Notes under the pieces: generated by a model
What the model was told of the DNA's origin: nothing
The model's database searches: none
The model's input: only the letters and a program-made list of their open reading frames with translations
Shown: piece after piece, positions 5,679 to 6,704 of the stretch
Layout: every line of letters begins with the position of its first letter
Position numbering within the stretch: position 1 is the stretch's first letter
Translations under genes and position numbers: made by a program
NCBI GenBank assembly: GCA_021817045.1
Contig: JAKAWG010000018.1
Coordinates: forward strand, 1 to 64,000
DNA: 64,000 bases
Direction: 5' to 3'
From: Acidobacteriota bacterium
GTDB lineage: Bacteria; Acidobacteriota; Terriglobia; UBA7540

Positions 5679-6347
5679 GTGCCGCGACGGAGACGCGTCT
5701 TGGCAAAATCGCTGTTTAGCTTTGGTACAAAGTTCATTGATTCCCTTGCAGTTCTGCCTAAAGACGTTCACGTAAAGTTCGTAAAAAGCCTTGAGCTTCT
5801 CTCGCGGAATCCCCGTCACCCTAGCCTGAATGTCGAACCATTGCAGGGGCAGGCTAAGGGCCTTTATTCGGCAAGAGTCGACTTACAGTATCGTTTGGTG
5901 TTTGCTCAGCCTTCCCAAGAAGACGTTCGCCTCCTGTTTATTGGTACACACGACGAGGCGTACAGATTCACAAACGGGAGGACATCTCGAGTGCTTGAGG
6001 AGATTCGGAGCGCAGGTACGCCGGTGGAATCGGACAGCCTCGAAACGTTCTTTGCCTTGTCGTCGGTTAAAACAAAGAAGTATCTGCCGCTTTCCAGGCA
6101 TTTGATGAACCAACCTGGGTCCGTGAGCCGGCTCGAAATGACATTCGGAGAGATAGAATGTGTTATCGGAGACAAGCTGCCGCCGTCGGCCCACAAGTTT
6201 CCCGCATGGTGGGCGAACGATCACACTCGGCACGTGCAGGCCTCGGCGTGGCTTGGCGTCGGGTGGAAAACGGTGGAGGTTCGTCTAGCCCGCGGGCGCC
6301 TTTTTTTCGCCCGGGGTGCGAAGGCCATGAACGTTGTAACGCAGTGA
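5679..6347 (+). CDS. RelE/ParE-superfamily toxin-like domain fused to a DUF7662-like C-terminal domain
   Basis: N-terminal LAVLPKDVHVKFVKSLELLSRNPRHPSLNVEPLQG...YSARVDLQYRLVFAQPSQEDVRLLFIGTHDEAYRF is RelE-like; C-terminal LEMTFGEIECVIGDKLPPSAHKFPAWWANDHTRHVQASAWLGVGWKTVEVRLARGRLFFAR matches the DUF7662-type pattern as remembered. Confidence 0.75.
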   Translation: MPRRRRVLAKSLFSFGTKFIDSLAVLPKDVHVKFVKSLELLSRNPRHPSLNVEPLQGQAKGLYSARVDLQYRLVFAQPSQEDVRLLFIGTHDEAYRFTNGRTSRVLEEIRSAGTPVESDSLETFFALSSVKTKKYLPLSRHLMNQPGSVSRLEMTFGEIECVIGDKLPPSAHKFPAWWANDHTRHVQASAWLGVGWKTVEVRLARGRLFFARGAKAMNVVTQ

Positions 6348-6459
6348 ACCCGGCGTCGGGCGCCTTATCCGGTTGGATTACCACGGAGCTAAGGAAGTTC
6401 CCAGCGGAACGTGCCATGCGATTCTTAAAGCCGCTGGCCTGAAGGAACGGAGCCGATGA
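6340..6459 (+). pseudogene. Truncated hicA remnant (C-terminal about 30 codons)
   Basis: Frame reads RLIRLDYHGAKEVPSGTCHAILKAAGLKERSR* (HicA C-terminus); in-frame TAA at 6337-6339 and no HicA N-terminus upstream; TGA (6457-6459) overlaps the hicB ATG as ATGA. Confidence 0.75.
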
Positions 6460-6704
6460 TCGAACTCGCCTATTCGCTGGTCATTGAAGCGACTGAAGAC
6501 CCTACGTTCTTCACCTTCTACTCACCGGAACTGGAGGGTTTCACGGGCGTTGGCAGCTCTGTGGAGGATTGTCTTTACAAAGCGCGATGGGGCATGGAAG
6601 AGCACGTAAGCCTTTTGCGAGAGCGGAAGCTGCCGGTTCCGCTGCAGTCTGACGACCCAAGAATTGTGATCCAAAACGCAAAGCGGGTTTCCTCGGCTGC
6701 CTGA
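6456..6704 (+). CDS. hicB: HicB-family antitoxin
   Basis: FTFYSPELEGFTGVGSSVEDCLYKARWGMEEHVSLLRE typical HicB-like fold. Confidence 0.85.
   Translation: MIELAYSLVIEATEDPTFFTFYSPELEGFTGVGSSVEDCLYKARWGMEEHVSLLRERKLPVPLQSDDPRIVIQNAKRVSSAA

Follow-up and report, generated by a model that had tools for sequence, protein, structure and literature searches.

A RelE-like/DUF7662 fusion protein carried by three genomes of one phylum, a candidate single-gene toxin-antitoxin module

The stretch of DNA analysed here (the window, 64,000 nucleotides) carries a gene in which a RelE-like N-terminal domain is joined to a C-terminal DUF7662 domain. The fusion is real and not a product of chance or artefact, as the identical architecture, with a shared linker motif, recurs in two other genomes. 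Tentatively, at somewhat short of an even chance, the protein is read as a single-gene RelE/YoeB-type toxin-antitoxin module with a DNA-binding antitoxin-type domain. The features of the locus are as follows.

5679..6347, + strand: RelE-like/DUF7662 fusion ORF, 222 aa from GTG; stop codon TGA at 6345-6347
5700..5975, + strand: predicted RelE/YoeB-fold domain, about aa 8-99 (AlphaFold2/Foldseek fold and weak sequence matches)
5976..6080, + strand: linker, with the motif (G)TPV..D.LE at aa 114-122 (alignments and model)
6081..6314, + strand: DUF7662 domain, about aa 135-212 (Pfam match aa 149-212)
6347..6459, + strand: 3' remnant of hicA, 5' half missing (PF07927 HicA, E=0.0023)
6456..6704, + strand: orphan hicB-like gene, 82 aa, intact (identity to relatives, pairing with hicA, and HicB by eye)

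The fusion gene and its distribution

The ORF is open for 222 codons with no internal stops, and both domains lie in the same frame. From the sequence, translation more probably begins at TTG 5700 than at GTG 5679, because GGAG stands just ahead of the TTG and no Shine-Dalgarno sequence is visible at the GTG; the protein initiated at TTG 5700 would be 215 aa. A search upstream of the ORF for a promoter-like site found none, and autoregulation of the gene is therefore unsupported. A terminator-like stem with seven T was observed inside the ORF at 6279-6307, about 40 bases ahead of the stop codon; the count of such sites is near that expected by chance.

The fused gene is rare and sporadic: three were found in overlapping samples of the phylum (396 genomes), the family (39), the class (399) and the orders and class surrounding genomes G203 and G471, which together make up roughly 800 distinct genomes. 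The other two, in G203 (L039/L099) and G471 (L103/L122), have the RelE-like domain followed by DUF7662, the same order as in the window protein, and the three genomes belong to one phylum and three different families. Pairwise alignments span nearly the whole proteins, with two-sequence E-values of 2e-32 and 9e-28 for the window protein against the two others and 5e-14 for the remaining pair. Identity among the three is 26-32%, and all are intact ORFs retaining both domains and the linker motif. In L103 the N-terminus by itself scored 24.0 bits against PF24732 ParE_like, where the cut-off is 24.4, and the C-terminal part is DUF7662. The original prediction had raised the possibility that two ORFs were artificially joined. 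Such an error of sequencing or assembly, for which the seven-T run at 6301-6307 near the 3' end of the ORF might be cited, is highly improbable: two independent genomes have the same fusion and linker motif, and the window ORF is one frame without a stop. An assembly join was rejected on this ground and the single-ORF join taken as genuine.

None of the three further genomes in the genus encoded the fusion protein, plasmid records contained no full-length fused copy, and a scan of genome contigs returned a single distant relative. The phage collection gave no match, and scans of viral contigs with DUF7662 or whole-protein queries recovered two DUF7662 relatives and no more, both lacking a fused RelE-like domain; on these results an origin as a phage gene was rejected.

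Replacement of half of hicA downstream of thiC

In the window the thiC stop codon and the fusion ORF are 3 bases apart. Downstream, the DNA from 6347 through hicB (to 6704) is 74% identical to the L118 locus, where the hicA ORF is intact. Identity to the L118 hicA resumes where the fusion stop codon ends, at 6347, and 3 bases separate thiC from the fusion; the fusion gene has thus taken the place of the thiC-hicA spacer together with the 5' half of hicA, and what is left is the hicA remnant and hicB. That the fusion gene was inserted within hicA, with the 5' part of hicA kept upstream, was rejected, as only 3 bases lie between the thiC stop and the ORF. The hicB-like protein has no Pfam match; four other genera of the family encode proteins 73-76% identical to it, in three cases adjoining thiC-hicA. 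Three other genera of the family (L117, L118 and L119) have an intact hicA-hicB pair behind thiC, and the remaining three genomes of the window's own genus have other arrangements there. The simplest reading is that one toxin-antitoxin-type gene displaced another at the thiC locus, a clear natural case of such displacement at a chromosomal site.

The loss of half of hicA was not part of the original prediction, which had remarked that no separate RelB-like antitoxin gene was visible. That remark extends to all three fused loci, where neither a RelB-like nor another cognate antitoxin gene was seen adjoining the fusion. The neighbours in the window are thiC, the hicA remnant and hicB, an arrangement that lacks the adjacent cognate antitoxin gene of a two-gene type II module.

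The N-terminal domain

A RelE/ParE-superfamily pattern had been proposed for the N-terminus; the proposal holds for the predicted fold and fails at the level of curated sequence families. No family cut-off in the RelE/ParE (BECR) superfamily was reached: the domain scored 24.4 bits against TIGR02116 Txe/YoeB (E=2.4e-5, cut-off 51.8), 17 bits against PF06769 YoeB (E=0.006, cut-off 27), 15.1 bits against PF05016 ParE (E=0.037, cut-off 23) and 16.6 bits against a HigB-like family (cut-off 27). It also resembled YafQ, under the curated cut-off, and weakly (0.02) RelK (3oei). A profile match to a viral hemagglutinin (0.007) was taken as a chance coiled-coil match. The protein was modelled with AlphaFold2 from an alignment of 13 rows (mean pLDDT 73.6, pTM 0.54; the relative orientation of the domains is uncertain at this pTM), and Foldseek against the PDB matched the N-terminal domain to solved structures of YafQ, YoeB, RelK and RelE at probability 1.00, with TM normalised to target of up to 0.82. 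The model thus predicts a BECR/RelE fold, and the absence of a RelE fold was not borne out.

E53 and R72 of the window protein align with a Glu and an Arg of RelK, and E53, R72 and H91 occupy what we take to be the positions of YoeB E46, R65 and H83. The domain is accordingly like YoeB, YafQ and RelK (PF06769, TIGR02116, TIGR00053) in fold and in these positions; unlike them, it falls under the curated cut-offs, has no YefM/RelB neighbour and is fused to a C-terminal domain. The window protein is the only one of the three fusions with the full set of E, R and H. The Arg is kept in 3/3, the Glu is lost in L103 and the His in both L039 and L103. The presumed catalytic residues are not conserved over the three fusions, and a common YoeB-type mechanism is therefore not established.

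These losses, together with the low RelE-like scores, the sporadic distribution and a possible promoterless insertion behind thiC, would fit a protein that has lost RelE-fold activity and now serves as a DNA- or protein-binding regulator, or is decaying. We consider this a serious rival reading, though rather unlikely, given that three intact fusions have kept both domains and the linker motif across their low identity and that the window copy retains E, R and H.

Among the relatives of the RelE-like domain are stand-alone RelE-like proteins and domains at the N-terminus of UvrD-type helicases (P0007, L010, L017 and L027). These helicases, which are not classical toxins, carry some of the closest relatives, with an HDEAY-like ending and an NYE/NVE motif in common with the fusion; their RelE-like domain precedes a superfamily 1 helicase and not DUF7662. 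A weaker Foldseek match was to Cami1 (CARF-RelE, 8phb/8phj), likewise a RelE fold in a multidomain protein. The fused domain of Cami1 senses cyclic oligoadenylate, whereas none such was found in the window protein.

The linker and DUF7662

The PV..D.LE part of the linker motif is invariant in the alignments of the three fusions, and the AlphaFold2 model predicts a helix at aa 118-128; the linker may be a neutralising segment for the RelE-like domain. The C-terminus matched PF24698 (DUF7662) at aa 149-212 with E=2e-13 and 50.4 bits, above the gathering cut-off of 26, in agreement with the original prediction, which had also quoted the linker and C-terminal sequences exactly. The predicted secondary structure of DUF7662 is helix-strand-helices-strand-strand. 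When modelled separately (pLDDT 82), the domain had no significant Foldseek match among solved structures; its weak, non-significant matches were mostly winged-helix proteins (MarR-family regulators, ORC, MukBEF subunits and CodY), and the model looks weakly winged-helix-like. A search of the available literature library found no paper on DUF7662.

DUF7662 was found above cut-off in 18/396 genomes of the phylum sampled, and the expectation that it accompanies nuclease- or antitoxin-like domains was borne out by both kinds of setting. L029, L032 and L102 encode short proteins in which DUF7662 stands at the N-terminus and is followed by a GSLKDTVTI..GTDLTDPI-like tail; the end of each gene lies either within a PIN-domain (VapC) gene or a few bases ahead of one. 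The proteins of L028, L107, L109, L112 and L113 share this architecture, and in L028 and L107 a VapC-like ORF lies downstream (by eye). In L046, DUF7662 is followed by a FitA-like RHH antitoxin domain, again adjoining a PIN gene. These VapB-like proteins are possibly an undescribed antitoxin type. The fusion protein resembles those of L029, L032, L046 and L102 in placing DUF7662 in a toxin-antitoxin setting; unlike theirs, which is N-terminal and encoded by a separate gene beside a PIN toxin, its DUF7662 is C-terminal to a RelE fold.

The nuclease settings are fusions to HNH (P0004), to DUF4268 (P0005) and to GIY-YIG (L035, by eye; L053, a weak match under cut-off, E=0.0046). They raise the alternative of a restriction-like DNA-targeting effector, in which DUF7662 would be the DNA reader and the RelE-fold domain would fill the slot of a nuclease or regulatory domain. 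The likeness of the RelE-like domain to UvrD-type helicase N-termini points the same way, as does a provirus protein (L073) that by eye is probably DUF7662 with EVE-like and HNH regions. No restriction or modification system was evident adjoining any of the three fusions, however, the window protein contains no nuclease domain besides the RelE fold of the kind that a type IV-like restriction nuclease would have, and PADLOC gave no match. To our knowledge, RelE-fold enzymes do not act as DNA nucleases. On balance this alternative is unlikely, though likewise a serious rival.

A DNA-binding role would account for all the antitoxin and nuclease settings of DUF7662, and the slot that it fills in VapB-like antitoxins suggests a DNA-binding-type domain rather than the sensor that the original prediction had offered as one possibility. 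The domain thus provides a functional lead, being common to VapB-like antitoxins and several nuclease classes.

A candidate single-gene toxin-antitoxin module

The reading as a single-gene toxin-antitoxin module draws on the RelE-fold match, a DUF7662 match above cut-off and the retention of fusion and linker in three genomes, with no separate antitoxin seen and with DUF7662 N-terminal in proteins whose genes overlap or abut PIN toxin genes. It is further favoured by the mostly winged-helix character of the weak DUF7662 structure matches, by the existence of fused BECR modules, and by the strain-specific occurrence of a gene that took the place of half the toxin gene of another toxin-antitoxin pair. 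Against it stand RelE scores under the cut-offs, the Glu and His losses, the UvrD-type helicase relatives, the lack of a significant DUF7662 structure match, the uncertain domain orientation and the lack of a promoter-like site upstream.

In the proposed module the N-terminal domain would be the toxin, acting, by analogy, as a ribosome-dependent mRNase. The PV..D.LE linker and its helix would pack against the RelE-fold domain and hold the toxin inactive, and DUF7662 would take the DNA-binding antitoxin role, probably on the gene's own promoter, as its placement in VapB-like antitoxins suggests. Were this restraint lost, whether to proteolysis or to a phage trigger, the toxin would be released. 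We infer toxicity, neutralisation by the linker, DNA binding and triggering from these comparisons.

Mono-gene modules of this kind with a BECR-fold toxin are established (HigB-HigA, RelE-YiaG, BrnT-BrnA and gp49-HTH), and 195 fusions have been tabulated (Gerdes 2025, PMC11980606). The protein is like them in that a single polypeptide carries a RelE-superfamily fold and, after it, a putative DNA-binding domain of antitoxin type, with no separate antitoxin gene; it is unlike them in that its second domain is DUF7662, whose antitoxin role is putative. It would behave as a fused BECR module if its N-terminal domain proved toxic and were held in check by the linker and DUF7662. The fusion is conserved in three genomes, and DUF7662 occurs in VapB-like antitoxins, though it is not a proven antitoxin domain. 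DUF7662 is not among the fusion partners in the table of 195, so that the RelE-like/DUF7662 protein adds to the published BECR fusion list (PMC11980606) a toxin-antitoxin-like architecture that it lacks.

A broader and distinctly speculative proposal is that DUF7662 is a hitherto uncharacterised winged-helix-like DNA-binding domain common to VapB-type antitoxins, modification-dependent nucleases and RelE-fused single-gene toxin-antitoxin proteins, and that restraint of the toxin depends on bound DNA. If true, translation arrest would be linked directly to the state of the DNA.

Other DUF7662 proteins

The L073 provirus gene (1462-2895) adjoins an integrase, and its product, in which DUF7662 is followed by the EVE-like and HNH regions seen by eye, is a possible modified-DNA nuclease. 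L104 and L110 have DUF7662 followed by a common C-terminal region, DLD..WP....R..IYDD.GR. An archaeal DUF7662 protein with further uncharacterised regions is encoded on the Thermococcus plasmid pTBMP1 (L052, 2210-3460), with genes annotated as type I restriction endonuclease and ribonuclease J in the vicinity.
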